Of a stretch of DNA of 64,000 nt, positions 43,611 through 64,000 are shown piece by piece. Position 1 is the first letter of the stretch. Each line of letters begins with the position of its first letter. The position numbers and the translations under genes are program-made. This stretch comes from Tricholomella constricta (taxonomy: Eukaryota; Basidiomycota; Agaricomycetes; Agaricales; Lyophyllaceae): contig JAACJP010000005.1 in NCBI GenBank assembly GCA_013368375.1, positions 1,566,678 to 1,630,677 on the forward strand, in the 5' to 3' direction. Under the pieces are notes generated by a model. It was given only the letters and a program-made list of their open reading frames with translations. It was not told the DNA's origin and did no database searches.

Positions 43611-45130
43611 GCATAATGCCGGTGACCCCGCTCTGCAGTGTGCGATGTAGGCTCCAGTTCAAATACCGACATCACATTACAGGGCAGGTATATGGCATTT
43701 GGCATGTCCACGGACTTCAGTCACTTCCGCAGTGTGGCGTAACCAGTATGCAAGACCTGCAGGTTTCCATGCCCTGTAATAGAAGTGAATTGTATTGATG
43801 TAATCTTCAGCCTTGGTTCCACTGACACTTCATCACTCGGACAGCACAGCAGCAGTGTGGCAATGCATTTCAAAGTATATTTATTGTTACGCCACGGTCA
43901 ATAAAAAATGTATATGTGCTTGGATACACAAGCTTTGAATTTAGTCTAACTAGTCCAAGCCTACATCTAATATGTGGGCTGGATTCCAAAGAGAGTGCAT
44001 AAGTGTACCACTTTGGTACACTTTACAGACAAGTGGACATGTCCAATATCCAAAAGATTGCTTATTCTGCAGTACTTATGTTCACTGCAGCATCATGCTA
44101 TTGTAGCTTTCTTGTATCATCTCTACCGTATACTAGTATTATTTACACTATGTAAGCTATTCTTACAAATTCACAGAGAGAATGTATTGAGAGTAGCCCT
44201 GTGTCCTCTTATAGCTGTCAATCAGCAGTCTTTGTTGTTTGTGCTTCAGAGTGCATGATACAGCACCATCTTTCATATTGAGCTTTACACTTACTTTGCT
44301 ACTGCGATATAATGTACTCTTTATGCACAGCATTGTCAATATCGAGCTAGATACAGCTGTTGTGGCCCTTCAGCTGTTCCAGCCCTCCTGCTATTGAAAT
44401 ACTAAGGAACACAAAGGTCATACTCATTACACAACACTCCCTTGATACTTGATACAGGCTTTGTTAACTCCACACCACAGTTATAGTGGAGCTACAGGTT
44501 TAAGTGTAGCCTCCTCTGTAGGCCCATGATTGAATGGAAGTAAACCATAACATGCAGACAGGATTTGATGGTGATACTGTATACTGTTGAGGTTGTATAC
44601 CAGTAGAAATGTAGGACATGCTACATGTAGTGTGCTCCATTGCTACTCCGTGGAGGTATATAACACCTCTGCTCTAAGGCCTCCTAGCACTGTATAGGCC
44701 CACTGCAGCACCAGGTGTGCTACACAGACAACAGTCCATGGAGGTCTGCAGATGTACTTTAGACATGCTACATGTAGTGTGCTCCACTGCAACTCCGCGG
44801 AGGTGGCAAAACAGCCCTGCTCCTTGTCTTTAACCATACTCAAATCGTATTTTCCTGGCAAGGCTGGTGCCCGAACTGCCCAATAGGACCATGATCAAAG
44901 ACACCCAGTTCCATCTTTCAAGGAGTATTATTCCTTCTTCCTTGATTTTGTGCTCTACTGCAACTCCATGGAGGTGGTAAAACAGCCCTGTTCCTTGTCT
45001 TTAACCGTACTCAAATTGTATTTTCCTGGCAAGGCTGGTGTCCGAACTGCCCAATAGGACCATGATCAAAGACACCCAGTTCCATCTTTCAAGGAGTATT
45101 ATTCCTTCGTTCTTGATTTTGTGCTCCACT
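43611..45130. repeat. Transposon interior with a direct duplication
   Basis: AT-richer, no supportable coding sequence. A segment of about 150 bp near 44808-44955 (starting AAAACAGCCCTG, containing TTTTCCTGGCAAGGCTGGTG) is repeated near 44979-45123. Confidence 0.7.
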
Positions 45131-45899
45131 GCTACTGCTACTCCGTGTGCTCCGCTGCAAGTCTGCGGAGGTGTGTAACAGCCCCTGCTCCACGGCCCCC
45201 TACTGCACCATATAGGCCTGCTGCGGTGCTGGGTGTGCCCCACAGGCAATAACCTGCGGAGGTCCGCGGACGTGGGTAATGCTCTGCAAGCTCAATGTCA
45301 TGCAGACATACTATATGTAGTGTGCTCCCGCTGCAAGTCCGCGGAGGTGTGCTGCTCTGTGGCCCCCACAGCACCATATAGGCCTGCTGCAGTGCTGGGG
45401 CACACAACCCGTGGAGGTCTGCGGACGTGGGTAATGCCCTGCAAGCTCAATGTTGTGTGGACATACTATATGTAATGTGCTCCGCTGCAAGTCCGCGGAG
45501 GTGTGTAACAGCACCTGCTCTGTGGCCCCCTATTGCATCATATAGGCCTGCTGCAGTGCTGGGTGTGCTCCACAGGCAACGACCCGCGGACATTCGCGGA
45601 CGTGGGTAATGCCCTGCAAGCTCAATGCAATGCAGACATACTATATGTAATGTGCTCCGCTGCAAGTCCGCGGAGGTGTGTAACAGCACCTGCTCCGTGG
45701 CCCCCTATTGCATCATATAGGCCTGCTGCAGTGCTGGGTGTGCCCCACAGGCAACAACCCGCAGAGGTCCGCAGACGTGGGTAATGCCCTGCTGCTCCGC
45801 TGCAAGCCCGCGGAGGTGTGCTGCTCCGTGGCCCCCACAGCACCATCTAGGCCTGCTGCATTGCTGGGTGTGCTCCACAGGCAACGACCCGTGGAGGTC
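45131..45899. repeat. Right subterminal repeat array (inner part)
   Basis: The same roughly 165-bp units as the left array, inverted (GACGTGGGTAATGCCCTGCA, GCAAGTCCGCGGAGGTGTG). Interrupted at 45899 by the Gypsy family H insertion; it continues at 56748. Confidence 0.8.
45895..45899. repeat. 5-bp target duplication of Gypsy family H copy 1
   Basis: AGGTC, repeated at 56743-56747 on the other side of the element. Confidence 0.85.
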
Positions 45900-46120
45900 T
45901 GTAACGGGGTTACAAGATTGGGGACCTTGCTGTGCACGCTAGACGTAAGCTTGACAAGTCTGTCGATTGCTACGTATAGGTGTACAAGGTCTACTATTTA
46001 ATTATGTAATGTAAAGGATTAAATAGGCAACACCGGAAGGTGTTGCCAAACAATAGCATAATCGTGTCGATAAGATACGATTAGATCAGATTAGTCGATA
46101 AGATAGTAAGCGCCCTTACA
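45900..46120 (-). repeat. 3' LTR of family H copy 1
   Basis: 221 bp, TGTAA...TTACA ends; contains a perfect 9-bp-arm hairpin GGCAACACC-GGAA-GGTGTTGCC (46026-46047). Confidence 0.92.
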
Positions 46121-46135
46121 TACCCCCCTTTAAGA
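46121..46135 (-). other. Polypurine tract of family H copy 1
   Basis: On the element strand AAAGGGGGGTA abuts the 3' LTR, the expected plus-strand primer. Confidence 0.75.
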
Positions 46136-46495
46136 TCGCTAGTAGCGATCTTCACCAGGGAGTAATGCAATAAGTAATAATAAATTAAGGCAAGAGGGAG
46201 GGTGTAGGTCCCGGCGACCCACACCCAATATCGCCTGCACAGAAATACGTATTACTGGTACGTATTCATGACCGAATACATAGTGGAGACAATAGTTCCA
46301 CTACACGGCCTCCAAGTGCCGCTCGAGGTGGCCTGGGATTGAGGACATCCGGTGTTGCGTATATTTGAGTACGCGACCTGCGGTTTGCTCCTCGGGAGTA
46401 AGGTGGTCTACACCTGACAATGGCGGTCGTCCCGACGATACCTCCTGCGTGTCGAGGTCGGTTCGTTGACGGGGGGATTAAGTTGTCTCCCCGAC
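46136..46495 (-). other. Region between the extra ORF and 3' LTR
   Basis: About 360 bp with no ORF; presumed 3' untranslated part of the element transcript. It still shows short inverted repeats. Confidence 0.5.
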
Positions 46496-49468
46496 CTATG
46501 ACTCCATCACTGTGTCGGGGTCGGTGGGGTTGGATTCCACCGGACCCTGGCTAGTGGTAATCACTGCCAGTGATAGAGGCCCTGTGAGGGCCGACACGGG
46601 GTCCACTTGGGTTTCGGTAGCTCCTATTGGAGCTGCCACGACTGTGGAGGGTGTCGCGGGGGCAGGTGTGAGTGCCGCCGGGTCCGCCATTTCGACGTTG
46701 GTAGACGTCGATCCCGATGGAGCAGGAATGTGCAGGTCCGGAGGGGGAAACTCCCCTCTCCGAACACGGAGTTCTCGGAAATGTGGGTCTTCACCCACAA
46801 ACATCCATTCCACGCTGGATAAACAATCCAGCCCCTCGTTCTGAAACTCCAAGCGCATTAACGTTTGAATGCGCGTGATGTCGTCGGTAGTGGGATGGTA
46901 CCACCCGTCCCATTCCGGAATGGCGGGTGGTACGCCCAATTGATCGAGTCGACGAACGCGATCGTCGTCAACATTGTGGAACAGGTCCTTATGAGGACCT
47001 GCAGTAGAGTAGTTATGGTCTAAATAGTGTAGACCATAAGTATAGCTGTGGTTTATCCAACTAATTGGAATACCACTGTTAATAAGGTGTTGTAGGACAC
47101 CTTGTTCCGTCAACCGCCCTTCGGGAGCGGTAGGTTGGATCCGAGGGATAATAACCTCGGGTCCGGTAATCGGCGTGAACGGCCGATCAGGGTTGGCCTC
47201 GTTATGGGCCGCCACCGCTTCTGCATAGAAGTATGGCCGTGCGGTAATGGTTGCGAAAATTCGCATAAACCATGCCCGCATACTATGAGTTACTGGCGAC
47301 AATACGTTCGCCAGTAAGTAGCCCCAGGTCCCGCGACGATGAACGCGGAACCGGTAGTCCATTACGATACCTCCATATTGGTTCTTAGAACCAATACGCC
47401 CATGGTGAATCATATGTCGACACCAATGTTCGACATCCAATGCATGAGCTGGGCCGGGTTGGGGGAGACCAGCTCCTCGTGTCGGCTTGTCATGCCGATA
47501 TTCGAATGCTTTACCCGGCCTTCTAATGACCGGGGCATTCCAGATGGGTGACCGTTCACTGAACGGTCGTGAGACGCTGCGGAATTCGTCCATGGCTGCA
47601 CGAGCCATGGCTCGGTCGCGCAAGTGAGGCGCGACCGATAGGGTGATCCGACGGAATTCTCTGAAGAGCATAAAGGCCTCGGCCCGCTCTTCATCCCTCA
47701 CCCCATGGCGTCGGTTATTGATCAGCTCATAGAGCTGATCAACTTCACGGGGGTTCATTGGGAACCCTCGTGGTGCGACGGCATACAGCCGTCCATCTGA
47801 GGGACGGGAGTTTTGTCCCGTCCCTAGCTCGCTCTCTGAGACGCGAGCTGCTGTGCCTAGCGCAAAGGCACGATTCTGGGCGGACGACACATATACCGTC
47901 CGCGACACCATATCCCAGAAGCGGTTGTCCCGCTCGTGGCGGCCGTTGATAAAGACCACCCCAAGCTCTTCAGGGATCCGTCCCGGCGCCTCCTTCTCAG
48001 CTTTGCGAGCCATATTCTCGCGATGCTGCTTTTGCCCGGCAGCCTTCTTCTTGCTGACGGGTTTCTCGTCGTCGGAGGACTCGCCGTAGTCCGACTCGTC
48101 CATAAATTCGGCGTACGGGTCAGACGCCTTTTGTTTGCCTTTGCCCTTTGGCGGAGGCGATGGGGGCTGCACCATCGTAGTGGGTGGTGCAGGCGATGGT
48201 GCCGGCAAGGTATACTTGCCAACAGGTTCCTTCTTTTGGGAACCTCTCTCTGGGTTCCGTACCCGGCTTTCTCCCGGGGTCGGTAGTGGGAGTAATGCTC
48301 CCGCTGTCTGTTGCTGTTGCGGTGCCTGCACCGCGGATGTCGACGATGTCGACGCCCTTCGTTCGACTTCTCGAGCCGGTAAGGGACGCACTTCGCGCGT
48401 CCCTCGGTCCTCGCGACGCTCCTCTCGTTGAGGACCATAATCAAGTGGGCGCTCATCACGCCACACTTCTTGGTCGGGATGGCGGTCGAACCGCCGATAC
48501 TCTTGTTCCGGGCGTCGTTCCTGACGCCTGGGTTCATATAAGGTGCGTTCTTCTCGCCGCACCTCGGTCTGCTGTCTTTTCATGGGTCGGGACGATGGTC
48601 CCTCCCCGCGATCTGGCGACGCCACTGCCGGTCGCTTTTTTGCCAGGCTGAGTTGCTCAGCCATGGCCGACTCTCTCGCCTTCACGCGTCTCAAGTCCGC
48701 GCGAACTCCATCGTACGCATCAAGCAGCTGGGTTACAACCAGCTGCGCCATCCCGTCGTCCAAGAAATCACAAAACTCGCGGTGAATACCCGCGTCTTCC
48801 AATCGGTCCAAGATAGACGAAAGGAGACCATCATCTGCGAATGGTCTCCTCGAACTTGACGCAGACGACGCTGCGCGATCGTCTGCCGGCCTCCGCGAAC
48901 TCGACGCAAACGAACCTCTTTGTTCGTCTGCATATGGCGCGGCATATTGCCGCGCCGGTTCGCTGCGCGCCACTTGCGCCGGTGGAGTAGGTGTTTTTTG
49001 ACGACTTTGGTCGTCCACCTCCATTTTCTCTGACTCGTTGTACCGCGTATTTTGCGGTACGATTGGGGCGGGCATTTGGGGGTACCACGTCGGTGGTGGG
49101 TACCCCATGAAGCTCTGCATTGATGGCATATGTTGATATGCCATCGACGGTGGGTAGAACCCACCCGTCTGTGGTTGTTGCCCCTGCTGGGGCGGTTGGC
49201 TCATGTGGCCAACCATAGGGTATAGTTGTTGCCCCTGATGGGGCGGTTGCCCCTGGTGGGGCAGTTGGCTCATGTGGCCAACCGATGGGTATTGAAATGT
49301 TTGGGGCTGCACGCCCATATAGGTTGGGGGCGGGGGCGCGCTTTCCGCGCGTCCCTGCACCTCCTCCCCTTTTGGACTCGATCCCGAGGCCATATTTTGA
49401 TAGTCGGTGCGGCTGTCGCCGCCCCGAGTCGCGTCGTTGCTTGAGTTTGCTCCTGCGGTTGGGTACAT
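46496..49468 (-). CDS. Extra 990-aa ORF in the env position, unknown function
   Basis: Same strand as pol, 125 nt after its stop, where retroviruses carry env. Residues about 30-160 are Gln/Pro/Met-rich with repeats of GHMSQ and PPHQGQQ. Next come paired Ser/Arg words (FASSSRRPADD), a short helical region (LLSSILDRLEDAGIHREF), an Arg/Glu-rich stretch (about 285-370), a basic PPPKGKGKQK patch, and acidic DESDYGESSDDE. The last half (about 490-940) looks globular (ELGVVFINGRHERDNRFW, LDVEHWCRHMIHHGR, RGTWGYLLANVLSPVTHSM, SVEWMFVGEDPHF). No signal peptide or membrane helix, so not a classical envelope. The frame is fully open. I do not recognise the family. Confidence 0.75.
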   Translation of the reverse strand: MYPTAGANSSNDATRGGDSRTDYQNMASGSSPKGEEVQGRAESAPPPPTYMGVQPQTFQYPSVGHMSQLPHQGQPPHQGQQLYPMVGHMSQPPQQGQQPQTGGFYPPSMAYQHMPSMQSFMGYPPPTWYPQMPAPIVPQNTRYNESEKMEVDDQSRQKTPTPPAQVARSEPARQYAAPYADEQRGSFASSSRRPADDRAASSASSSRRPFADDGLLSSILDRLEDAGIHREFCDFLDDGMAQLVVTQLLDAYDGVRADLRRVKARESAMAEQLSLAKKRPAVASPDRGEGPSSRPMKRQQTEVRREERTLYEPRRQERRPEQEYRRFDRHPDQEVWRDERPLDYGPQREERREDRGTREVRPLPAREVERRASTSSTSAVQAPQQQQTAGALLPLPTPGESRVRNPERGSQKKEPVGKYTLPAPSPAPPTTMVQPPSPPPKGKGKQKASDPYAEFMDESDYGESSDDEKPVSKKKAAGQKQHRENMARKAEKEAPGRIPEELGVVFINGRHERDNRFWDMVSRTVYVSSAQNRAFALGTAARVSESELGTGQNSRPSDGRLYAVAPRGFPMNPREVDQLYELINNRRHGVRDEERAEAFMLFREFRRITLSVAPHLRDRAMARAAMDEFRSVSRPFSERSPIWNAPVIRRPGKAFEYRHDKPTRGAGLPQPGPAHALDVEHWCRHMIHHGRIGSKNQYGGIVMDYRFRVHRRGTWGYLLANVLSPVTHSMRAWFMRIFATITARPYFYAEAVAAHNEANPDRPFTPITGPEVIIPRIQPTAPEGRLTEQGVLQHLINSGIPISWINHSYTYGLHYLDHNYSTAGPHKDLFHNVDDDRVRRLDQLGVPPAIPEWDGWYHPTTDDITRIQTLMRLEFQNEGLDCLSSVEWMFVGEDPHFRELRVRRGEFPPPDLHIPAPSGSTSTNVEMADPAALTPAPATPSTVVAAPIGATETQVDPVSALTGPLSLAVITTSQGPVESNPTDPDTVMES

Positions 49469-49592
49469 GTTGTGGTTGTTGGTTGAAAATTTGGTTCACG
49501 TCCTAGCGCCAAAACATATTTAACCTTCTGTCATAACTTTTGATGGTTATGTAATTTTTCTGATCGCCGTGATCACATGACCGCGCCACATT

Positions 49593-52500
49593 CTAGGTTC
49601 GTCGCGGCAACCTCGATGCGCTGCCCACCCCTTGCAATTCCAAGTAGCGGTCCAATGCCGCTAACTTGTTACAATTGTTGTGCGATTCCCAGGTGGTGTC
49701 ACCTAGACTCCACCTAACTTGGTATTCCACTTTATTATTTTGGGTCCATCTATGGCCCAAAATCTCTTCGACAAACCATTCGTGATCGTCCGGCGCCCCA
49801 AAATCATAGGGCTCCGGGTGAGTTCTATTCGGGAACATTGCATCGTTTGTTGCGTAGTATGGGCGCAACAGCGATATGTGAAATGTTGGATGTATTCGAC
49901 GCTCCATAAGCGCCGTAGGTAATTCCAGCGTATAGTTCGACGTGTCTGGCATGGCCTTCAATACTTTGTAGGGCCCGACGAATTTCGGACATAATTTCCG
50001 GGCGCGTCCCTTGGGGAGGTTCAAGTTCTTGGTAGATAAATATACCAAGTCACCCCCCTTTATTTCCGGACCAGTGGATCGACGCCTGTTTGCCTCGCGC
50101 GTTTGAAATACGCGCGTTTCGATTATAGCGTCATGCGCCTCCGCTATGTTCTGCAATGCGCGTTCAGCGTATTCCCGAATTCCCTTTGGTATTACGCTGT
50201 CTGAGCGTATCTCTTTCAACATGGATGGCATGTATCCACCATTCAACTCAAATGGAGCGAACTTGGTGGTAGCCGATACGCTCGCATTTATCGCAAACTC
50301 GGCCATGGGTATACGATCTACCCAATCCTTTTGGTCATGCCGTACAACGGCGCGAAATATCTGGCCAATACTACGATTGGCGCGCTCCGTCTGTCCATCC
50401 GTCTGAGGGTGGAAAGATGTCGACATTAGAAGCTTAGCTCCTAATAATTTATGTAGTTCGCGCCACCAGCGCGAGGTAAACTTAGAGTCTCGGTCGCTTA
50501 CGATCGAGCTTGGAAGGCCATGTAACCTGACGATTTCCCGTAGGTATACCCATGATAATTGGGCTGCCGTCATCGTCGTATGTATGGGTATCATATGCAC
50601 CATACTCGTCATACGACAAATTACTACCCATAGGTAGTTATATCCCTTTGATTCTGGAAATGGACCGATAAAGTCCATTCCGATAGAATCCCAAGGCTTA
50701 GTGGGTACTGGCAGGGAATGTAGTTTCCCTAACGGTTTCTGATTTGACGTCTTGATCTGTTGGCAATACTCGCACGTTTTACAAAACGTACGAACAGTCG
50801 TGGCTAGTGATGGCCACCAATACCATCGTCGAATATATTCAGTAGTCCGTTCGGCACCGAAATGGCCCATAGTTTTATGGGCTTGCTCAACAATTGACGT
50901 GATGATCTCGGGTTCTCGCGGTATGCATAGAACGCTATCATTTATAGCGTTCGTGGTCCAAATCAGATTGTCTTTCGTAGTGAACGTACGAAAGTCCGTT
51001 GGGTTAGTGAGAATCACTGAAAAAAGTTTGTCCTTTGGGTATCCCAGGATAACGTCGTTACGAATCTTTTCGTCCGTTTTGTCTGGGGGAGGGGCAACTG
51101 TGTCCCTTCCGAGGACCATATCTCCAACCGTACGTTCCTGTTCGGTTGGCCTCTGGCTTTTTTGAAGGTGTGACGATGGTCCGGATGCGATACTTGGTGC
51201 CGCAGCCTCCATTATCTGGGCTTCTACATCTCGATCCTCCTGGCGTTCTTGAAGACGCTTGCTTCGACGTATTTCTACGTCCTTCATCGCTCGAATTTCA
51301 ACTACTTTTTCCACGATTTCATGGTATCGTGGTACGGGTAAATCTTCACCAGTAGGATCGATTCTAGCATCGGCAGCTACGAAGTCGTGGACGTCGTAAC
51401 GATCGTGATGGTTATCGCTCTCGAAATATCGCGATAGGCAGTCGGCGACTTTATTCAGTTCGCCTTTCACATAGGTAATGTCGAAGTTAAATCGCGACAT
51501 GTATTCCATCCATCGACGCTGCCTAGGTGATAAATTCACCTGGGTCTTAAAGAATTCGAGGGCTTTGTGGTCGGTAATGATGTGGATTTTATAGCCCACA
51601 AGTTTATCCTCCCACTTAAGTAATGCTTCGAGGATAGCTAAGGTTTCGAGTTCATGCACGGCGTAATTCTGCTGTGCATTCGTGAATTTTTTGGACATGA
51701 ATCCAGCCGGCTGAGCTTGGATCCACGTAGGTCCTTGACCATACATCGCGCCGACGCCTGACTTGGAGGCGTCACATATAATCCAAATTGGTTCGTCTGT
51801 CTTCGGTTGAATAGGCCGAATAATTGGCGTCGTGCAACATATATGCTTTATCATTTCAAAGCATCGTTGATGAATTGGTCTCCAATAGAATGGCGACCCA
51901 TTCTCGGTCATCGCCATTAGTGGCCCAGTGTACGCGGATATATCTGGGAGGAATTGACCCAGATAATTAACCAGTCCAACGAATCGCTGTATATCGTTGT
52001 AATTCCGTGGAACCCTCCAATCGCGAATCCGTGCCAATTTATCGGCGTCAGGGTGAATTCCTTGGTCGTCGATTATATGACCAAGGCAATCGACGCGATC
52101 CGAATATAGTTCGCATTTCTTCCACTTCAAATAAAGGGACTGTTCGCGTAATCGTTCGAACACTACTCGAAGATGATCTTCATGTTCTTCGATGGAGTTC
52201 GAAAATATGAATATGTCGTCCAAGTACACATGCATAAATTTCCCAATGACGTCCCGAAAAATTGACGTCATTAATCGTTGAAATGTTGCGGGGGCGTTAC
52301 AGTCCCCGATCTGCATTATGTTGCTAACGTACGTTCCCGCTATCGTTGCAAAGGCGGTCTTGTGTACGTCCTTCTCGAGGATGCGTACTTGTTCGTACGC
52401 ATCCGTTAAGTCAATTTTGGACCGTATTTTTCCCCTAGCGACATCTTCGCGAATAACTTCCTGGTCTGGCAAGGGCGTAACGTCCTTGATCGTGTTATCG

Positions 52501-53492
52501 TTACGCTGGCGTGCGTCCAAGGGTGTTCTCAGGGAGCCGTCTTTTTTCGGGATACATAGCAGCGGCGCTGCTTGCTTCACCGAACGAGGCTCCCACCATT
52601 TAGAATCCGTATACCGATTGACCTTCGCGTAGAATTCCTCGCGAAGGGACATTGGGCACCTCGGCGCGTGGTACTGGTACTGTTTCTCATCGTCGACGAG
52701 AGTAATCTCGTGATTGACTTCCCGCCAGGGTGGTAGCTGTTGTTTCGTACCACCCACCATATCTTCGAATTCGTCATGCCATTGCTGTCGAAGTCGTGGA
52801 TAATCTTCCGCGGTAAGGCCTCCATTGGGTGCCTTACCTTTTCCGTTCACCGTTCTTGCAGCGCGAATGTGCGCTGTGTCTTTATTGCTGGGTTTAACAT
52901 CAAACCTAGCTCGTAGTTTTACGAGAGCAAAGTCACTCTCATCCTTCACTGGTAACCGATACAACGGCCGTTTAGCCCGTTGTATATTCACCGGAAAATT
53001 CATTTCCGTTGGCTCCGATACTTCCTCAGGCCGTGGATTTCGGTACGCTTGTCCTCGCGGGCCTACATTTCTTCCTTCGTGAGCCCGCATTGACGCTATT
53101 ACTGCGTTCCATTCTTGCGGCATCCGTGGGTCGAACATCCACTCATATTGTGGATGTGGGTTTGGTCTATCCCAAAATGATCGATTACTCGCATTCGTAT
53201 ACGGCTCTGATTCCGTATCCTTATCGGCCCCACTCGTCTTACGCGCTTCATTATCGCGCTGGCGTTCTTCGCATGGCTCGTGAGTCCGTGCTCGTTCGTT
53301 CGAAGGCTCGTGTTGTGCCTTCTGCTGTTGTCGTTGGGGTTTTCTCTTCTTCGGAGGTGGCTTATCCCCCTCCTTAAGAGTTTCTTGAAACTCTTCATCG
53401 GATAATAGAAGTGCTGGGTGATCCTTTGGTAGGCTGTTTATCGGCCTACCCTCGTTATCAGGATCATCATCATCTTCTACTGTGACTTTTAG
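49593..53492 (-). CDS. Family H pol: RT, RNase H, integrase, chromodomain
   Basis: In frame with gag-protease after a single UGA at 53495-53493; the first ATG in this frame is at 53138 (1,181 aa), but synthesis by readthrough would begin at 53492. RT: PLLCIPKKDGSLRTPLDARQ, IDLTDAYEQVRILEKD, the YLDDIFIF catalytic box and CLGHIIDDQGIH. RNase H: WIICDASKSGVGAMYGQ, YAVHELETLAILEAL, TDHKALEFF. Integrase: HKTMGHFGAERT with CKTCEYCQQI zinc finger, then GMDFIGPFPESKGYNYLW, LPSSIVSDRDSKFTS and TSFHPQTDGQTERANR (DDE). The C-terminus has a chromodomain (HEWFVEEILGHRW, EYQVRWSLGDTTWESHNN) that likely targets chromatin marks. All catalytic residues seem present. Confidence 0.93.
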   Translation of the reverse strand, partial: LKVTVEDDDDPDNEGRPINSLPKDHPALLLSDEEFQETLKEGDKPPPKKRKPQRQQQKAQHEPSNERARTHEPCEERQRDNEARKTSGADKDTESEPYTNASNRSFWDRPNPHPQYEWMFDPRMPQEWNAVIASMRAHEGRNVGPRGQAYRNPRPEEVSEPTEMNFPVNIQRAKRPLYRLPVKDESDFALVKLRARFDVKPSNKDTAHIRAARTVNGKGKAPNGGLTAEDYPRLRQQWHDEFEDMVGGTKQQLPPWREVNHEITLVDDEKQYQYHAPRCPMSLREEFYAKVNRYTDSKWWEPRSVKQAAPLLCIPKKDGSLRTPLDARQRNDNTIKDVTPLPDQEVIREDVARGKIRSKIDLTDAYEQVRILEKDVHKTAFATIAGTYVSNIMQIGDCNAPATFQRLMTSIFRDVIGKFMHVYLDDIFIFSNSIEEHEDHLRVVFERLREQSLYLKWKKCELYSDRVDCLGHIIDDQGIHPDADKLARIRDWRVPRNYNDIQRFVGLVNYLGQFLPDISAYTGPLMAMTENGSPFYWRPIHQRCFEMIKHICCTTPIIRPIQPKTDEPIWIICDASKSGVGAMYGQGPTWIQAQPAGFMSKKFTNAQQNYAVHELETLAILEALLKWEDKLVGYKIHIITDHKALEFFKTQVNLSPRQRRWMEYMSRFNFDITYVKGELNKVADCLSRYFESDNHHDRYDVHDFVAADARIDPTGEDLPVPRYHEIVEKVVEIRAMKDVEIRRSKRLQERQEDRDVEAQIMEAAAPSIASGPSSHLQKSQRPTEQERTVGDMVLGRDTVAPPPDKTDEKIRNDVILGYPKDKLFSVILTNPTDFRTFTTKDNLIWTTNAINDSVLCIPREPEIITSIVEQAHKTMGHFGAERTTEYIRRWYWWPSLATTVRTFCKTCEYCQQIKTSNQKPLGKLHSLPVPTKPWDSIGMDFIGPFPESKGYNYLWVVICRMTSMVHMIPIHTTMTAAQLSWVYLREIVRLHGLPSSIVSDRDSKFTSRWWRELHKLLGAKLLMSTSFHPQTDGQTERANRSIGQIFRAVVRHDQKDWVDRIPMAEFAINASVSATTKFAPFELNGGYMPSMLKEIRSDSVIPKGIREYAERALQNIAEAHDAIIETRVFQTREANRRRSTGPEIKGGDLVYLSTKNLNLPKGRARKLCPKFVGPYKVLKAMPDTSNYTLELPTALMERRIHPTFHISLLRPYYATNDAMFPNRTHPEPYDFGAPDDHEWFVEEILGHRWTQNNKVEYQVRWSLGDTTWESHNNCNKLAALDRYLELQGVGSASRLPRRT

Positions 53493-53495
53493 TCA
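53490..53495 (-). promoter_or_regulatory. UGA CUA readthrough stop between gag-protease and pol (copy 1)
   Basis: The gag frame ends GAA-UGA and the next codon is CUA; pol continues in the same frame. UGA-CUA is a well-known efficient readthrough context. The same hexamer is at 63271-63276 in copy 2. Confidence 0.7.
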
Positions 53496-56242
53496 TTCTC
53501 TTCGTTTCTCCAATGACCGATGGCGTCTAACTCGGCCATCGGTATCATCCATTTTTACTTTAGTCGCTGGTGTAGCGACTCCATTGACGACAACTTCGTC
53601 ACGGTTAAAGTCCAGCACGACGTTGTTTGCGCGCATAAACGGCGTGCCTATAATCACGTCGTATCGATCAAAGTTAGCAAGGTCCATGTAAACCTTGCCT
53701 TTAAACCCTGGAAGAACGGCTTCCACCGTCGTGCCAAAATTTACTGTGGCCCGACTTCCTTTAGTTCCGAGCTGGAGGATTAATGGATCCTCCAACGGAA
53801 ACACTCGAATATCGGCCACTTGAGCGAATGACGGCGTAAGTCCGGTAGTCGTACTCCCGGAATCCCAGAGGGTCCAAGCCTCATGTCCACCTACATTCAT
53901 GTAGGTGACCAGGCACTCCTTGTCCTTTATCGGTACTACGGGACGAGCAATCTTGTCCCTACCCGTCCGCACTTTCACTTTACGACTTGGTGGTTTATCA
54001 TTGCGTTCTTCTGACGCAATGACTTCTGTCATTGCAAACATACGCTCGGTCTCATCGTCCCGAGCATAGTATTCATTTTCGTAGACCTCCATATCTACGA
54101 ACTCATCGCCTTCGTCTTCATTGTCCGCCTCGGTCTCAGGGCGTCCATTGTCTCGCCCGTCCGGGTCCTCGGGAGAAGTATCTTCGTCGTCCGCCTCACT
54201 TGCTGCGTCAGGTGCCGCTGTACGTGCGGCCCTTAGGAACGCTCGCTGTTTCTTGGGCTGTTTGCAATCTTTTGCAAAATGCCCTAGTTTCCCACAATTA
54301 AAGCACACTTCCCCCGGGGGGTGGTTGTGATGACCGTGGTTTTTGGTTTGATCGTAATGCGGACGATCTCCCGTCTTCATCGCTGGTTTCTCGACGTGGA
54401 GCTTTTGCTCTCCACGTCCCGGTTGATCCTGATACGCTAGCTTGGCGTATGGTTTTTCATTAAGTGCGCCAAACACACGTCGAGTCCTGTTGAAATTGTT
54501 TTGTGGGGTGTTCACTCGCCCCCCATCTGGTTTCCGCGGTTGACTCGGTTGATTTCGCTGAGCGGTTATGTTCCGCTCAAAGTAATCAGCCGTCTTCTGG
54601 GTGGCTTGGTGTGCTAAGCCCACCGCTAGGAACTCTTGGACCGTGTTGATTTCGGGTGATAGCCCGTCATCGAATAATGCCTTCCGCATCTCACGCGGAA
54701 GTGTCTTGAGGAATTTCTCCAGGAACGTCCAATCGTCCGTTCTTGCTGCCATATTCATGGCATGGTCCACAAGGTCATCATATAAACCTTGTATTCCTTT
54801 GCTCGCCGAGTAAGTAACGGCATTAAAGTCGTTACGAGCATCTTGCATGGTTGAGGGTAGCACGAACCGGTCATACAATCCAAGTACGACGTCTTCAAAC
54901 GTCCAGAACTGCTTCTCGCGGTTTACATGTATAACGTGGCGATTGTACCACTTTCGAGCTTCGCCATCGAGAAACTCGGATGTTATCAGAACGCGCTCTT
55001 GGTCGCGTTCTTCTCCTCCAAACTGGCTTACTGCCAGCATCACGACGAGGCTCGACAGCCATTCTTCAAGGTCGCCGAACTTTGCACTTCCACTATAAGT
55101 GCCTACGGACTTTGAGTCCGCACGCCGAGATTTCATCCCGTCCGGAAGCGACAGTCGTACCGACAAACGCTCGTGCATTAATTGATGCAATCGCTCATGC
55201 ATCTTAGTTTTATGCTGCTCTCCGGCAGCATGTATTCCGTCCGCAATTGATTGACTCCGGCGGATCGGAGCAGGCATTGAATAGCCTCGAGTCTGAGCTC
55301 GAGGCTGCGCATATTCCGCGGGTTCACTTATTCGAACCCGCATGTCTCGACGACCGTTAGCTATCGCCGTCGAATTATTCTTTTCGACGGCTTCCAATCC
55401 AGTTACTAACCCACCATCCGAACCTTGAGTTTGCGAGGCCCATTGCCTCGCCATCTCATCCACAGGCATATGTCCTTCAAAGACGACTCCTTGGTCGTCA
55501 TAATTCGTGAACTTGCTCCGTGATAGATCAGCATTTCTCAGACGCTGGTAAGCGATCCGGTTGTTCCACTCTTTCGCTAATGGAACACGGCCATCCTTAG
55601 CCTCCGGAGGTACTTGAATAGCTGGCACGCTTTCAGTGCCAGCTAGTTGCGAATTCGTGTCCTTACGCTCAGTGGGTGGGTCTAATGTAGACTCACTAAC
55701 AGGGGCCCATCGGGAACCTTGTGGTTGCGCAAGGTGCTCTTCGCGAGTCATTCTTTCGCGTTTCGCTGCCGCGGCCCGACGACGATAATCGTCGTCAGAT
55801 TCCCTAACTGGCGCGCTTGGTGCAGCGCAGATACTGCCATAGCAGCCTCATCAAGAGGCTGGTTCGATCCCGAGGCCACTGCTTGCGGGGTGAAAAGGTC
55901 ATCCCAACGACCTTTTCCTTTGTTGAGCGGAGCTTTCTTAGGTATAGGAGTCCCAGCGATCGAGCTGACTGCTGAATTCGAAGTTCCCTTAGGGTACTTC
56001 TTCCTGTATTCCGTAACTACTACGGACAGCGCTTCCAAGTATCGGTCGGCATACTCCTGTACGACCATTTCTGCAACGGACTGTGCTCCGGTTGATCGTA
56101 GAACGAGCCTATCCGCTCGTTCCTCTAGTCGTCTTCGTCGATGTTCGCTAACAACATCAGTGGTATCCCAGAATTGCTTCACTTTTAGCGCCAGCAATTC
56201 CCTATCGCTGGCTTCTTCTTCATTGGCCTCGGGGTCGGACAA
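53493..56242 (-). pseudogene. Family H gag-protease, copy 1 (damaged)
   Basis: Homologous to the intact 1,028-aa frame of copy 2. Here about 160 bp near 56245 is deleted relative to copy 2, and a single base is missing near 55795 (TTAGGGAATC against TTAGGAGAATC), so the product is split into an N-terminal frame (56242-55748) and a C-terminal frame (55751-53493). The latter retains the gag core (WKFEDVV-type block, LEKFLKTLPREMRKALF), one zinc knuckle CFNCGKLGHFAKDC, a Glu/Asp-rich linker and the protease DSGSTTTGLTPSF with LVTYMNVGGHEAWTL ahead of it. Confidence 0.88.
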
Positions 56243-56521
56243 GTCGTCTTTCCTCCGATTCTAATCCTAGTGTATTCTGCGCTGGTGGACTTTGTCCACC
56301 AGCGACTGATCCGACTTCCACTGGTTGCAGTGGAAGTTGTGATGGAGGATGCGCTGCGAGCGCATCCTCGAGGACCGGAGTTCGGCTCTTTCCGGATGTG
56401 GGAGTTGGTGTCATCGGGTCTGGGTCTCGTGGGTTCTTTTGATGATGGTTGTTCTAAATGGAATGTGATTCTGCGTATGTCGTGGGTACGCAGCAATAGA
56501 AAGCAAGGTAGCTTAAAAAAA
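56243..56521 (-). other. Leader of family H copy 1
   Basis: Between the 5' LTR and gag. Contains three consecutive hairpins with 10-11 bp arms within 89 bp (56281-56303, 56314-56337, 56345-56369). In copy 2 the corresponding bases are within the start of gag, so the damaged copy has lost that reading. Confidence 0.7.
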
Positions 56522-56742
56522 TGTAACGGGGTTACAAGATTGGGGACCTTGCTGTGCACGCTAGACGTAAGCTTGACAAGTCTGTCGATTGCTACGTATA
56601 GGTGTACAAGGTCTACTATTTAATTATGTAATGTAAAGGATTAAATAGGCAACACCGGAAGGTGTTGCCAAACAATAGCATAATCGTGTCGATAAGATAC
56701 GATTAGATCAGATTAGTCGATAAGATAGTAAGCGCCCTTACA
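56522..56742 (-). repeat. 5' LTR of family H copy 1
   Basis: 221 bp; by eye identical to 45900-46120. Confidence 0.92.
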
Positions 56743-57387
56743 AGGTCCGCGGACGTGGGTAATGCCCTGCAAGCTCAATGTAATGCAGACATACTATATG
56801 TAATGTGCTCCGCTGCAAGTCCGCGGAGGTGTGTAACAGCACCTGCTCTGTGGCCCCCTATTGCATCATTATAGGCCTGCTGCATTGCTGGGTGTGCTCC
56901 ACAGGCAACGACCCGCGGACGTCCGCGGACATGGGCAGTGCCCCGCAAGCCCCCCACCCTGCTGCCCCCCCACAGCACCGTATCGGCCCCCTGCAATCCT
57001 GGGTGTGCCCCAGACGACGACCCGCGGACATGGGCAGTGCTCCGCAAGCCCCCCCACCCTGCTGCCCCCCCACAGCACCATATCGGCCCCCTGCAATACT
57101 GGGTGTGCTCCACAGACAATGACCCGCGGAGGTCCGCGGACGTGGGTAGTGCCCCGCTAGCCCCCACCTGCTGCCCCCCGTAGCACCATATAGGCCCGCT
57201 GCAGCACCAGCGGGCCCGCTGGTACTGTGCCAGACGACTACATGTAGAGGTCCCGCTGGCACCGTGCCAGACGGCTACATGTAGGGGCCCCGCTGGCGCT
57301 CCAGCGGGCCCGCTGGTGCCGTCAAGTACGCTACAATGTATGGGCCCGCTGGACAGTGGGACACGCTACATTGTAGTGCCTGTATGT
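56743..57387. repeat. Right end of the long-TIR transposon
   Basis: Begins with the second AGGTC, then inverted subterminal units and the terminal GC-rich palindrome block (CCAGCGGGCCCGCTGG-type), ending ...TAGTGCCTGTATGT against GAATGGCC. Confidence 0.82.
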
Positions 57388-59857: not shown

Positions 59858-60079
59858 TGTAAGGGCGCTTACTATCTTATCGACTAATCTGATCTAATCG
59901 TATCTTATCGACACGATTATGCTATTGTTTGGCAACACCTTCCGGTGTTGCCTATTTAATCCTTTACATTACATAATTAAATAGTAGACCTTGTACACCT
60001 ATACGTAGCAATCGACAGACTTGTCAAGCTTACGTCTAGCGTGCACAGCAAGGTCCCCAAATTCTGTAACCCCGTTACA
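59858..60079 (+). repeat. 5' LTR of family H copy 2
   Basis: 222 bp, TGTAAGGGCG...CCCCGTTACA; differs from the copy 1 LTRs only near the end (CCAAATTCTG against CCAATCTTG). The preceding bases are CTCCA; the partner duplication is outside the window. Confidence 0.92.
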
Positions 60080-60099
60080 TTTTTTTAAGCTACCTTGCT
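60047..60099 (+). promoter_or_regulatory. LTR-leader complementarity (possible primer-site fold)
   Basis: AGCAAGGT in the LTR end (60047-60054) can pair with ACCTTGCT in the leader (60092-60099). No tRNA-type primer site (TGG...) follows the LTR, so self-priming or an internal fold is possible; speculative. Confidence 0.3.
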
Positions 60100-60186
60100 T
60101 TCTATTGCTGCGTACCCACGACATACGCAGAACCACATTCCATTTAGAACAACCATCATCAAAAGAACCCACGAGACCCAGACCCG

Positions 60187-63100
60187 ATGACACCAACTCC
60201 CACATCCGGAAAGAGCCGAACTCCGGTCTTCGAGGATGCGCTCGCAGCGCATCCTCCATCACAACTTCCACTGCAACCAGTGGAAGTCGGATCAGTCGCT
60301 GGTGGACAAAGTCCACCAGCGCAGAATACACTAGGATTAGAATCGGAGGAACCTTGGCCGATAGCAAGCACCAATGTGCCGGGGAGCTTGGCCGACGAAT
60401 TGGCCAGGTCATATCGACCTGGCCCCACGGCAGGAAGCAGATGGCCAGACAGCCGTCTGTCAAGTAGAGCGTTCGGGGCGTCCACCTTGAGTATAGTCAA
60501 GATGGAGTCGGACGAAGACGACTTGTCCGACCCCGAGGCCAATGAAGAAGAAGCCAGCGATAGGGAATTGCTTGCGCTAAAAGTGAAGCAATTCTGGGAC
60601 ACCACCGATGTTGTTAGCGAACATCGACGAAGACGACTAGAGGAACGAGCGGATAGGCTTGTTCTACGATCAACCGGAGCACAGTCCGTTGCAGAAATGG
60701 TCGTACAGGAGTATGCCGACCGATACTTGGAAGCGCTGTCCGTAGTAGTTACGGAATACAGGAAGAAGTACCCTAAGGGAACTTCGAATTCAGCAGTCAG
60801 CTCGATCGCTGGGACTCCTATACCTAAGAAAGCTCCGCTCAACAAAGGAAAAGGTCGTTGGGATGACCTTTTCACCCCGCAAGCAGTGGCCTCGGGATCG
60901 AACCAGCCTCTTGATGAGGCTGCTATGGCAGTATCTGCGCTGCACCAAGCGCGCCAGTTAGGAGAATCTGACGAAGATTATCGTCGTCGGGCCGCGGCAG
61001 CGAAACGCGAAAGAATGACTCGCGAAGAGCACCTTGCGCAACCACAAGGTCCCCGATGGGCCCCTGTTAGTGAGTCTACATTAGACCCACCCACTGAGCG
61101 TAAGGACACGAATTCGCAACTAGCTGGCACTGAAAGCGTGCCAGCTATTCAAGTACCTCCGGAGGCTAAGGATGGCCGTGTTCCATTAGCGAAAGAGTGG
61201 AACAACCGGATCGCTTACCAGCGTCTGAGAAATGCTGATCTATCACGGAGCAAGTTTACGAATTATGACGACCAAGGAGTCGTCTTTGAAGGACATATGC
61301 CTGTGGATGAGATGGCGAGGCAATGGGCCTCGCAAACTCAAGGTTCGGATGGTGGGTTAGTAACTGGATTGGAAGCCGTCGAAAAGAATAATTCGACGGC
61401 GATAGCTAATGGTCGTCGAGACATGCGGGTTCGAATAAGTGAACCCGCAGAATATGCGCAGCCTCGAGCTCAGACTCGAGGCTATTCAATGCCTGCTCCG
61501 ATCCGCCGGAGTCAATCAATTGCGGACGGAATACATGCTGCCGGAGAGCAGCATAAAACTAAGATGCATGAGCGATTGCATCAATTAATGCACGAGCGTT
61601 TGTCGGTACGACTGTCGCTTCCGGACAGGATGAAATCTCGGCGTGCGGACTCAAAGTCCGTAGGCACTTATAGTGGAAGTGCAAAGTTCGGCGACCTTGA
61701 AGAATGGCTGTCGAGCCTCGTCGTGATGCTGGCAGTGAGCCAGTTTGGAGGAGAAGAACGCGACCAAGAGCGCGTTCTGATAACATCCGAGTTTCTCGAT
61801 GGCGAAGCTCGAAAGTGGTACAATCGCCACGTTATACATGTAAACCGCGAGAAGCAGTTCTGGACGTTTGAAGACGTCGTACTTGGATTGTATGACCGGT
61901 TCGTGCTACCCTCAACCATGCAAGATGCTCGTAACGACTTTAATGCCGTTACTTACTCGGCGAGCAAAGGAATACAAGGTTTATATGATGACCTTGTGGA
62001 CCATGCCATGAATATGGCAGCAAGAACGGACGATTGGACGTTCCTGGAGAAATTCCTCAAGACACTTCCGCGTGAGATGCGGAAGGCATTATTCGATGAC
62101 GGGCTATCACCCGAAATCAACACGGTCCAAGAGTTCCTAGCGGTGGGCTTAGCACACCAAGCCACCCAGAAGACGGCTGATTACTTTGAGCGGAACATAA
62201 CCGCTCAGCGAAATCAACCGAGTCAACCGCGGAAACCAGATGGGGGGCGAGTGAACACCCCACAAAACAATTTCAACAGGACTCGACGTGTGTTTGGCGC
62301 ACTTAATGAAAAACCATACGCCAAGCTAGCGTATCAGGATCAACCGGGACGTGGAGAGCAAAAGCTCCACGTCGAGAAACCAGCGATGAAGACAGGAGAT
62401 CGTCCGCGTTACGATCAACCTAAAAACCACGATCATCACAACCACCCTCCGGGGGAAGTGTGCTTTAATTGTGGAAAACTAGGGCATTTTGCAAAAGATT
62501 GCAAACAGCCCAAGAAACAGCGAGCGTTCCTAAGGGCCGCACGTACAGCGGCACCTGACGCGGCAAGTGAAGCGGACGATGAAGACACGTCTCCCGAGGA
62601 CCCGGACGGACGAGACAATGGACGCCCTGATACAGAGGCGGACAATGAAGACGAAGGCGATGAGTTCGTAGACATGGAGGTCTACGAAAATGAATACTAT
62701 GCTCGGGACGATGAGACCGAGCGTATGTTTGCAATGACAGAAGTAATTGCGTCAGAAGAACGCAATGATAAACCACCAGTTCGCAAAGTTAAAGTGCGGA
62801 CGGGGAGGGACAAAATTGATCGTCCCGTAGTTCCGATAAAGGACAAGGAGTGCCTTGTCACCTACATTAACGTAGGTGGACATGAGGCTTGGACCCTCTG
62901 GGATTCCGGGAGTACGACTACCGGACTTACGCCGTCATTCGCTCAAGTGGCCGATATTCGAGTGTTTCCGTTGGAGGATCCATTAATCCTCCAGCTCGGA
63001 ACTAAAGGAAGTCGGGCCACAGTAAATTTTGGCACGACGGTGGAAGCCGTTCTTCCAGGGTTTAAAGGCAAGGTTTACATGGACCTTGCTAACTTTGATC

Positions 63101-63273
63101 GATACGACGTGATTATAGGCACGCCGTTTATGCGCGCAAACAACGTCGTGCTGGACTTTAACCGTGACGAAGTTGTCGTCAATGGAGTCGCTACACCAGC
63201 GACTAAAGTAAAAATGGAGGATACCGATGGCCGAGTTAGACGCCATCGGTCATTGGAGAAACGAAGAGAATGA
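60187..63273 (+). CDS. Family H gag-protease, copy 2 (intact)
   Basis: 1,028 aa. The N-terminus is Pro/Ser-rich and then acidic (MESDEDDLSDPEANEEEA). The middle holds the gag core (about residues 480-690; KFGDLEEWLSSLVVMLAV, FLDGEARKWYNRHVIHV, LEKFLKTLPREMRKALF), followed by a zinc knuckle CFNCGKLGHFAKDC (about residue 760), a Glu/Asp linker, and an aspartic protease with WDSGSTTTGLTP and DVIIGTPFMRANN. Long for a fungal gag because protease is fused in the same frame. Ends at UGA with CUA next. The frame tolerates dozens of embedded short inverted repeats. Confidence 0.92.
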   Translation: MTPTPTSGKSRTPVFEDALAAHPPSQLPLQPVEVGSVAGGQSPPAQNTLGLESEEPWPIASTNVPGSLADELARSYRPGPTAGSRWPDSRLSSRAFGASTLSIVKMESDEDDLSDPEANEEEASDRELLALKVKQFWDTTDVVSEHRRRRLEERADRLVLRSTGAQSVAEMVVQEYADRYLEALSVVVTEYRKKYPKGTSNSAVSSIAGTPIPKKAPLNKGKGRWDDLFTPQAVASGSNQPLDEAAMAVSALHQARQLGESDEDYRRRAAAAKRERMTREEHLAQPQGPRWAPVSESTLDPPTERKDTNSQLAGTESVPAIQVPPEAKDGRVPLAKEWNNRIAYQRLRNADLSRSKFTNYDDQGVVFEGHMPVDEMARQWASQTQGSDGGLVTGLEAVEKNNSTAIANGRRDMRVRISEPAEYAQPRAQTRGYSMPAPIRRSQSIADGIHAAGEQHKTKMHERLHQLMHERLSVRLSLPDRMKSRRADSKSVGTYSGSAKFGDLEEWLSSLVVMLAVSQFGGEERDQERVLITSEFLDGEARKWYNRHVIHVNREKQFWTFEDVVLGLYDRFVLPSTMQDARNDFNAVTYSASKGIQGLYDDLVDHAMNMAARTDDWTFLEKFLKTLPREMRKALFDDGLSPEINTVQEFLAVGLAHQATQKTADYFERNITAQRNQPSQPRKPDGGRVNTPQNNFNRTRRVFGALNEKPYAKLAYQDQPGRGEQKLHVEKPAMKTGDRPRYDQPKNHDHHNHPPGEVCFNCGKLGHFAKDCKQPKKQRAFLRAARTAAPDAASEADDEDTSPEDPDGRDNGRPDTEADNEDEGDEFVDMEVYENEYYARDDETERMFAMTEVIASEERNDKPPVRKVKVRTGRDKIDRPVVPIKDKECLVTYINVGGHEAWTLWDSGSTTTGLTPSFAQVADIRVFPLEDPLILQLGTKGSRATVNFGTTVEAVLPGFKGKVYMDLANFDRYDVIIGTPFMRANNVVLDFNRDEVVVNGVATPATKVKMEDTDGRVRRHRSLEKRRE

Positions 63274-63276
63274 CTA
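63271..63276 (+). promoter_or_regulatory. UGA CUA readthrough stop (copy 2)
   Basis: TGA at 63271-63273 followed by CTA; the downstream frame is open to the window end in phase with gag. Identical to copy 1. Confidence 0.7.
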
Positions 63277-64000
63277 AAAGTCACAGTAGAAGATGATGAT
63301 GATCCTGATAACGAGGGTAGGCCGATAAACAGCCTACCAAAGGATCACCCAGCACTTCTATTATCCGATGAAGAGTTTCAAGAAACTCTTAAGGAGGGGG
63401 ATAAGCCACCTCCGAAGAAGAGAAAACCCCAACGACAACAGCAGAAGGCACAACACGAGCCTTCGAACGAACGAGCACGGACTCACGAGCCATGCGAAGA
63501 ACGCCAGCGCGATAATGAAGCGCGTAAGACGAGCGGGGCCGAGAAGGATACGGAATCAGAGCCGTATACGAATGCGAGTAATCGATCATTATGGGATAGA
63601 CCAAACCCACATCCACAATGGATGCCGCAAGAATGGAACGCAGTAATAGCGTCAATGCGGGCTCACGAAGGAAGAAATGTAGGCACGCGAGGACAAGTGT
63701 ACCGAAATCCACGGCCTGAGGAAGTATCGGAGCCAACGGAAATGAATTTCCCGGTGAATATACAACGGGCTAAACGGCCGTTGTATCGGTTACCAGTGAA
63801 GGATGAGAGTGACTTTGCTCTCGTAAAACTACGAGCTAGGTTTGATGTTAAACCCAGCAATAAAGACACAGCGCACATTCGCGCTGCAAGAACGGTGAAC
63901 GGAAAAGGTAAGGCACCCAATGGAGGCCTTACCGCGGAAGATTATCCACGACTTCGACAGCAATGGCATGACGAATTCGAAGATATGGTGGGTGGTACAA
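63274..64000 (+). CDS. Family H pol, copy 2 (5' part)
   Basis: Open in the gag frame from the CUA codon on. An acidic start (VEDDDDPDNEGRP) and a basic, low-complexity linker (KPPPKKRKPQRQQQ) lead to the segment matching copy 1 from MPQEWNAVIASM onward. Catalytic domains are beyond the window end. Compared with copy 1 the linker lacks a few codons around 63615. Confidence 0.85.

Follow-up and report, generated by a model that had tools for sequence, protein, structure and literature searches.

Why should the coding sequence of a retrotransposon be filled with short perfect hairpins? The question is raised by a Ty3/Gypsy element in the window analyzed here, a 64,000-nt stretch of contig JAACJP010000005.1 from Tricholomella constricta. 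A sequence-only reading had noticed perfect inverted repeats every few tens of bases along this element, and proposed either a role of structured RNA (in packaging, dimerisation or silencing) or a mutational product of reverse-transcriptase snap-back. The answer that we favor, and consider probable, is that selection at synonymous sites has given the element a folding that functions in the manner of genome-scale ordered RNA structure (GORS).

Organization of the element and its copies

The full-length element (copy H1, 45900..56742, minus strand) was delimited by its identical LTR pair and its flanks; hairpins occur all along it. The 5' LTR (221 bp; 56522..56742, minus strand) and the 3' LTR (45900..46120, minus strand) have the same sequence (221/221 positions identical), and the copy is flanked by a 5-bp target duplication, GACCT. 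Between the LTRs, reverse transcriptase, RNase H and integrase follow one another in the order of Ty3/Gypsy chromoviruses. The gag open frame (784 codons; 53493..55847, minus strand) contains a zinc knuckle (Pfam zf-CCHC). The pol frame (49593..53492, minus strand) matches Pfam families for reverse transcriptase, RNase H, integrase and SH3_Tf2-1, and gives a sub-threshold score for the chromodomain that is C-terminal in chromoviruses (Pfam Chromo, 19.5 bits, cut-off 25.1). Downstream of pol lies ORF3 (999 aa; 46496..49495, minus strand), for which a Pfam search gave no family match and a protein search gave two relatives, both from Lyophyllum.

A second hairpin-dense copy, H2 (59858..64000, plus strand; its start was inferred from match-block coordinates), extends past the end of the window; where blocks could be matched, its identity to H1 is 98-100%. 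The 44-Mb genome holds at least 36 copies of the H pol with 96-100% protein identity (36 of 1226 candidates scored). Among the 120 matches listed for pol, the named organisms are all basidiomycetes, and scans of the viral_contigs and genome_contigs collections found no DNA-level relative of the element. Self-priming was considered for this element and rejected, the 8-base self-complementarity near the primer-binding region being too weak and off position.

Hairpin density compared with shuffled sequences

Perfect stems with an arm of at least 8 bp and a loop of 3-20 nt number 61 in 45900-56742, compared with a mean of 2.15 and a maximum of 4 in 20 dinucleotide shuffles. The part of H2 at 60000-64000 contains 18 such stems, compared with 1.0 in shuffles; the density is common to both copies, as had been claimed. 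The three hairpins with 10-11-bp arms that had been read in 56281-56369 were recovered as a trio at 56280..56369, namely 56280-56304 (arm 11, loop 3), 56314-56337 (arm 10, loop 4) and 56345-56369 (arm 11, loop 3). Other hairpins singled out earlier were also found: three in the gag cluster at 55283..55391 (arms 9, 8 and 9) and seven with an arm of at least 8 in 47290-47742, where a cluster in ORF3 (47550..47742) has arms of 8 to 11 bp.

Counted over all parts, there are 109 hairpins with an arm of at least 7 in 10.8 kb, and these cover 23% of the length including loops. Each part said to carry them does so. The 5' LTR has two perfect hairpins with 9-bp arms and one with an arm of 7, the stretch from the 5' LTR to the gag open frame (55848..56521, minus strand) has 7 with an arm of at least 7, gag has 23 when counted by region (22 within the frame), pol has 30 and ORF3 has 40. 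The mean spacing at an arm of at least 8 is 181 nt, and the wording "every few tens of bases" overstates the density to some extent.

Synonymous-codon shuffles, which fix both protein and codon usage, were made for each reading frame (30 each; arm of at least 8, loop 0-17). They left on average 0.73 hairpins in pol, 0.9 in gag and 1.17 in ORF3, compared with the 16, 13 and 20 observed. Since codon-preserving shuffling abolishes the excess, it is written in codon choice, and the hairpins are superimposed on coding sequence, as the sequence-only reading had it. The enrichment in coding parts (loop 3-16) rises steeply with arm length: none at 3-4 bp, 1.3x at 5, 3.2x at 6, 5.6x at 7, 18x at 8, 33x at 9 and 90x at 10. 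The coding parts contain one arm of 11 bp and none of 12, and no perfect arm of 12 bp or more was found in a search with loops of up to 300 nt. Loops of 20-43 nt showed no summed excess in coding parts (9 vs 8.75). With respect to codon phase, only the class of hairpin centers that pairs third positions with third positions is mildly short (35/140).

The background, 54.5 kb drawn from the window and from four further stretches of the genome but leaving out the tandem arrays at 42-45.9 kb and both H copies, contains 17 stems compared with 13.7 in shuffles, which is no clear excess. The folding of the LINE ORF exceeds that of its shuffles by 3-5%. These values support the claim that neighboring sequences lack the trait. 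The claim does not extend to 40001-45900, which contains tandem arrays with palindromic units (8 vs 1.4 in shuffles), or to 30-40 kb of the window (6 vs 2.6).

Distribution among Gypsy families of the genome

The sequence-only reading had proposed a count against other Gypsy families. Three families of the same genome, with pol identities to H of 92% (D), ~68% (E) and 57-59% (F), all show the trait. Hairpins with an arm of at least 7 were counted in pol and compared with synonymous shuffles, in which 2.6-4.8 are expected for D, E and F. The counts were 26 and 28 in family D and 25, 30, 23, 23 and 21 in family F; family E, with 7, 11 and 7, is weak in perfect stems. Two control families, L035 and L036, have ~33-35% pol identity to H. 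Members of the L035 family do not rise above background (3 vs 3.6; likewise L050 and L052). L036 is mildly raised (11 vs 6.4, with a maximum of 10 in 15 shuffles), and L051, of the same family, has 11 compared with 2.8 by dinucleotide shuffle and a folding excess of 9%. On these counts dense hairpins appear as a trait of a Ty3/Gypsy clade, among families of one genome, and the clade lacks a sharp border because the L036 family is mildly raised. The families with the trait also have a reading frame downstream of pol.

Conservation of arms and turnover of positions

At the four-fold sites of pol, H and D differ at 6/78 positions in the arms of H hairpins, at 8/18 in the loops and at 147/414 of the other sites. 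Arm positions of F hairpins, used as a negative control, differ between H and D at 14/47 sites, compared with 140/442 elsewhere. In a trio test, hairpins common to two lineages were taken and the four-fold differences of a third lineage were counted, for eight trios; the p-values of the conservation tests and of the copy-variant tests below are nominal. For hairpins common to H and L021, D differs at 1/66 arm sites and at 115/365 sites outside (p=5.6e-9). The loops of the same hairpins differ at 3/12 sites and their 30-nt flanks at 48/124, so that conservation of the surrounding sequence does not explain the result. For the three remaining H/D trios, which have shorter branches, the counts were 1/53 vs 30/297 (p=0.063), 3/59 vs 25/287 (p=0.44) and 1/51 vs 31/295 (p=0.064). 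None of the four F trios was significant: 4/26 vs 63/245 (p=0.34), 4/20 vs 132/319 (p=0.063), 4/20 vs 69/257 (p=0.61) and 3/14 vs 54/218 (p=1). In the H/D lineage, synonymous sites thus change more slowly in arms than elsewhere, with no significant effect in F. Of the comparison of arms with loops proposed in the sequence-only reading, the slower change of arms holds for H/D; the F trios are not significant, and covariation, considered below, is thin.

The individual hairpins are less durable than their density. In pol, 17 of 30 H hairpin centers coincide with those of D (0.09 expected), one is shared with each E copy and one with F. Some hairpins, at columns 842 and 2084, keep their core but extend it in opposite directions in H compared with D, which represents a register shift. 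Because the centers turn over between families, what lasts is the density of hairpins and not the individual hairpin.

Variants among copies

Thirty copies were compared, with variants present in a single copy regarded as nearly neutral and shared variants as having passed through transposition. The comparison drops 50-nt blocks less than 62% identical to L001 and columns absent from L001; the count of shared breaks by type of change also drops 6 of 85 hairpin centers that are present in one copy only. Repairs of one-mismatch 8-bp stems were found as 24 shared and 3 single variants, compared with 692 shared and 322 single among all variants (p=0.02; for 7-bp and 9-bp stems, p=0.19 and 0.14). 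When changes that left these mismatch pairs unrepaired were taken as the reference, the values were p=0.042, 0.049 and 1 for 7, 8 and 9 bp. Changes that break perfect 7-bp stems are depleted (68 shared, 54 single; p=0.008), and those in 8-bp (41 and 23, p=0.49) and 9-bp stems (17 and 9, p=0.83) show no depletion.

These variants bear on the proposal that the hairpins are a mutational product, in which the nascent strand would snap back during reverse transcription, copy itself, and so create and re-perfect inverted repeats. A snap-back mechanism has been described for DNA polymerases (PMC8794818) and a conversion mechanism has been proposed for coding palindromes of Nematomorpha (PMC6649704). 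The near-binary mismatch profile of H, in whose coding parts 8-bp windows with 0, 1 and 2 mismatches occur at 24x, 2.6x and 1.06x the level of synonymous shuffles, would suit such an origin, as would stems without a strong G-U or GC preference (arm GC 0.566 vs 0.539, standard errors ~0.015, no clear richness). However, 23 of the 24 shared repairs at one-mismatch 8-bp stems are G-T or A-C transitions, although 123 of the 203 mismatch pairs need a transversion. Conversion should also spread about half of the changes to the partner, but of 88 doubly synonymous pairs only 3 carry changes at both positions that yield a different Watson-Crick pair, compared with ~34% change per site at synonymous sites outside hairpins.

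Moreover, neither arm has changed much more than its partner (65 vs 55 changes and 27 vs 30). When the state in D of the 40 H hairpins with an arm of at least 8 was determined, 11 were perfect, 18 had one mismatch, 7 had two, 2 had three and 1 had four, while 1 fell in a gap; thus, 25 of the 40 differ by one or two mismatches and 3 by three or four. Repair by transitions and the rarity of two-sided changes argue against snap-back, which we regard as very unlikely. In the search for compensatory changes, likewise suggested in the sequence-only reading, two-sided Watson-Crick changes proved rare (7 in 729 pairs), which leaves covariation thin.

Folding energy and strand

Folding energies were calculated in 201-nt windows and compared with codon-preserving shuffles, and the same script was applied to two RNA phages. 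Folding of the RNA had been suggested as a check of the hairpins. The sense strand of H folds 26.2% better than its shuffles, and all 44 coding windows have energies lower than the shuffle mean, compared with 3.3 and 3.0% in control Gypsy families. The excess is 23.1% in D, 21.7 and 21.3% in E, and 21.4 and 19.6% in F; family E, with few perfect stems, nevertheless reaches a level near that of H. Outside the coding parts, the excess is present in the LTR and UTR as well (4 and 3 windows), and for the LTR together with 55848..56521 it amounts to 36% on the sense strand and 32% on the antisense strand (4 windows). Within this study, only the RNA phages matched this level (MS2 27.9%, Qbeta 30.1%).

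The strands differ to a family-dependent extent. Both E copies fold significantly better in the sense orientation, by 8.4 points (95% range 4.1-13.1) and 7.9 points (1.9-13.6). The sense bias is slight and not significant in H (2.9 points, -0.5 to 6.4) and D (3.3 points, -1.7 to 8.5), and F shows none (-0.6 and -2.4 points). MS2 and Qbeta fold about equally on both strands.

Selection could instead act on single-stranded DNA (cDNA), in which only Watson-Crick pairs would count. The absence of a significant strand difference in H and F is consistent with this, and so is the similar behavior of G-T and A-C changes among copies, both as shared breaks (20 and 22) and as shared repairs at mismatch pairs (10/41 and 13/39). 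However, the two E copies each have a significant folding advantage on the sense RNA, and MS2 and Qbeta, whose genomes are RNA, show the same near equality of strands; selection on cDNA is therefore, in our estimation, quite unlikely. A related argument was withdrawn. In H, G-U-containing stems are about as enriched as A-C-containing stems, from which pairing at the DNA level had been inferred, but the preference for G-U is absent in MS2, slight in Qbeta, and weak and limited to 7-8 bp in E. coli rRNA. These controls make the test undecisive, and the slight G-U lean of Qbeta makes the phage control itself a little less neutral. Since both E copies favor sense folding, RNA is the likeliest target of selection, and in H and F both strands may need to fold.

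Proposed mechanism and function

We propose that, as the element transposed again and again, selection among point mutations, most of them synonymous, would build and keep dense short local hairpins (stems of ~6-11 bp, loops under ~20 nt) from one end of the transcript to the other. Any single hairpin would be replaceable, and folding density would be what is kept. Against this proposal weigh the similar enrichment of G-U- and A-C-containing stems in H, the strand bias short of significance in H, D and F, arms without a clear GC richness, the F trios and shorter-branch H/D trios that miss significance, the stem lengths at which breaks are not depleted or repairs not significantly enriched, the thin covariation, the few perfect stems of E and the mildly raised L036. 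The molecule under selection would be RNA, family E being the one with a clear strand bias. Its benefit may be that the transcript stays folded on itself, avoids annealing to antisense RNA and makes a poor target for silencing; packaging is the other candidate function. Of the origins named in the sequence-only reading, a structured-RNA role fits best, given that H/D arms resist change and that the folding excess is near that of two RNA phages, with packaging, dimerisation and silencing as candidate roles.

Signals for packaging tend to be few in number and constant in position. Were the hairpins there for compaction, dimerisation or packaging of the 10.6-kb genomic RNA in a virus-like particle, rather than for escape from silencing, a structure spanning the LTR, the UTR and all three reading frames would be understandable, as would the frame downstream of pol in the families with the trait. 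On the other hand, the stems contain no recurrent motif (66 shared 6-mers vs 55 by chance, standard deviation 9), hairpin positions turn over, unlike fixed signals, and the control family L035 manages without dense hairpins. We consider this function unlikely.

Within the GORS-like reading, the near strand-symmetry of H and F would make sense if folding were required of both strands. It is possible, and we put it forward tentatively, that a clade of LTR retrotransposons evolved a phage-like rule through synonymous sites, according to which sense and antisense RNAs both stay single-stranded and escape silencing directed at double-stranded RNA, while positions drift and density is kept. An older phrase on replicated RNA is 'fold as you please, but fold you must'.

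If the GORS-like reading is right, genome-wide RNA structure extends beyond RNA viruses, and a transposable element carries a second, structural code over its proteins. Synonymous sites would then not be neutral here, which bears on analyses of codon usage and selection in transposons. The host genome, in which several diverged families of the clade coexist with Gypsy families where the trait is slight or missing, would offer a natural comparison for studying function (silencing, packaging or RNA stability).

Comparison with known systems

In a search of titles and the beginnings of abstracts in open-licence PubMed Central, no description of such a structure in an LTR retrotransposon was found. 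GORS has been described for positive-strand RNA viruses as hundreds of sequential short hairpins in coding sequence, with poorly conserved positions, register shifts, paired sites that are less variable, and avoidance of long uninterrupted duplexes (PMC7642675). The element resembles it in its order-dependent low folding energy along the whole length (26.2%, 44/44 windows), in its sequential local stem-loops without a shared motif (109 with an arm of at least 7 in all parts), and in the poor positional conservation of its hairpins (of 30 H pol centers, D shares 17, whereas either E copy has a single one in common with H, as does F). Paired sites are less variable for H/D, though not significantly so in the four F trios. 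The register-shifted hairpins of H and D resemble the 'inexact covariance' described for coronavirus GORS (PMC7642675). Published values of the folding excess are 7.5-10.7 for HCV, ~15 for SARS-CoV-2 and 23.4% at the highest (PMC7642675); their comparison with the 20-26% of the element is a rough one, window settings and shuffles being different. Unlike those of GORS viruses, the stems of the element are unusually perfect and short, and the structure is hosted by a fungal LTR retrotransposon and not by a positive-strand RNA virus with a link to persistence.

Perfect inverted repeats upon functional coding sequence are also known from the mitochondrial genes of Nematomorpha, where palindromes of up to 284 bp are gained and lost between species (PMC6649704). 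Those have tentatively been attributed to conversion, whereas the arms of the element do not exceed 11 bp and its repairs follow a point-mutation spectrum.

With the phages MS2 and Qbeta the element shares a similar folding excess on both strands. It is unlike them in its perfect 8-bp centers, of which H has 59, compared with 1.2 in shuffles, over 10.6 kb, while MS2 has 1 vs 0.6 (3.5 kb) and Qbeta 6 vs 0.8 (4.2 kb). For RNA replicated by Qbeta replicase, strong self-structure has been argued to prevent the formation of double-stranded RNA (PMC6913131), and a retrotransposon that encounters RNA interference and transcripts antisense to its own may, by analogy, have a similar reason to fold. The element thus presents the sequence-based features of GORS that were tested, yet it is an LTR retrotransposon; it would be placed beside GORS as something that works in the same way, and not among its members.

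Surroundings and coding content of H1

The full-length Ty3/Gypsy copy H1 (45900-56742, minus strand) is inserted inside one of the local tandem repeat arrays, which are located at 42124-43109, 44778-45792 and 56923-57297; the shortest repeat unit measures 37 bp and the longest about 175 bp. The arrays on the two sides are mutually inverted, and the palindromic words CCGCGG/GACGTC are present in several consensus units of the arrays.

Inspection by eye of the stretch just inside the 5' LTR (56488-56521, minus strand), which begins with a run of T, revealed no obvious tRNA-type primer site. An 8-base match between this stretch and the 3' part of the element's own LTR hints at self-priming, but the match is displaced by 12 nt and too weak to support such a claim.

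The third frame, ORF3 (46496-49495, minus strand; 999 aa), was assigned to no Pfam family, and the protein database search identified two relatives, both from Lyophyllum. One of these, P0123, bears a tannase/feruloyl esterase annotation and contains the corresponding domain, perhaps through a fused gene model.

Variation among Gypsy copies

A comparison within family H (L020, L021-L030) showed one subfamily to differ by 6% in pol but by about 15% over the initial portion of ORF3; L020 looks like a mosaic of the two subfamilies. Among the 30 family H copies (L001-L030), C>T and G>A accounted for 381 of the 941 single-copy variants, counted before flank masking; such a lean would be expected to follow from cytosine methylation and deamination.

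The hairpin trait was also examined in a more distant Gypsy family of the same genome (L036 and L051; pol identity of about 33-35%). This family showed a mild hairpin excess, with 8 hairpins of arm 8 or more versus 0.6 in L051, and its folding energy was 3-10% better than in shuffled sequence. The trait may therefore be graded among Gypsy families.
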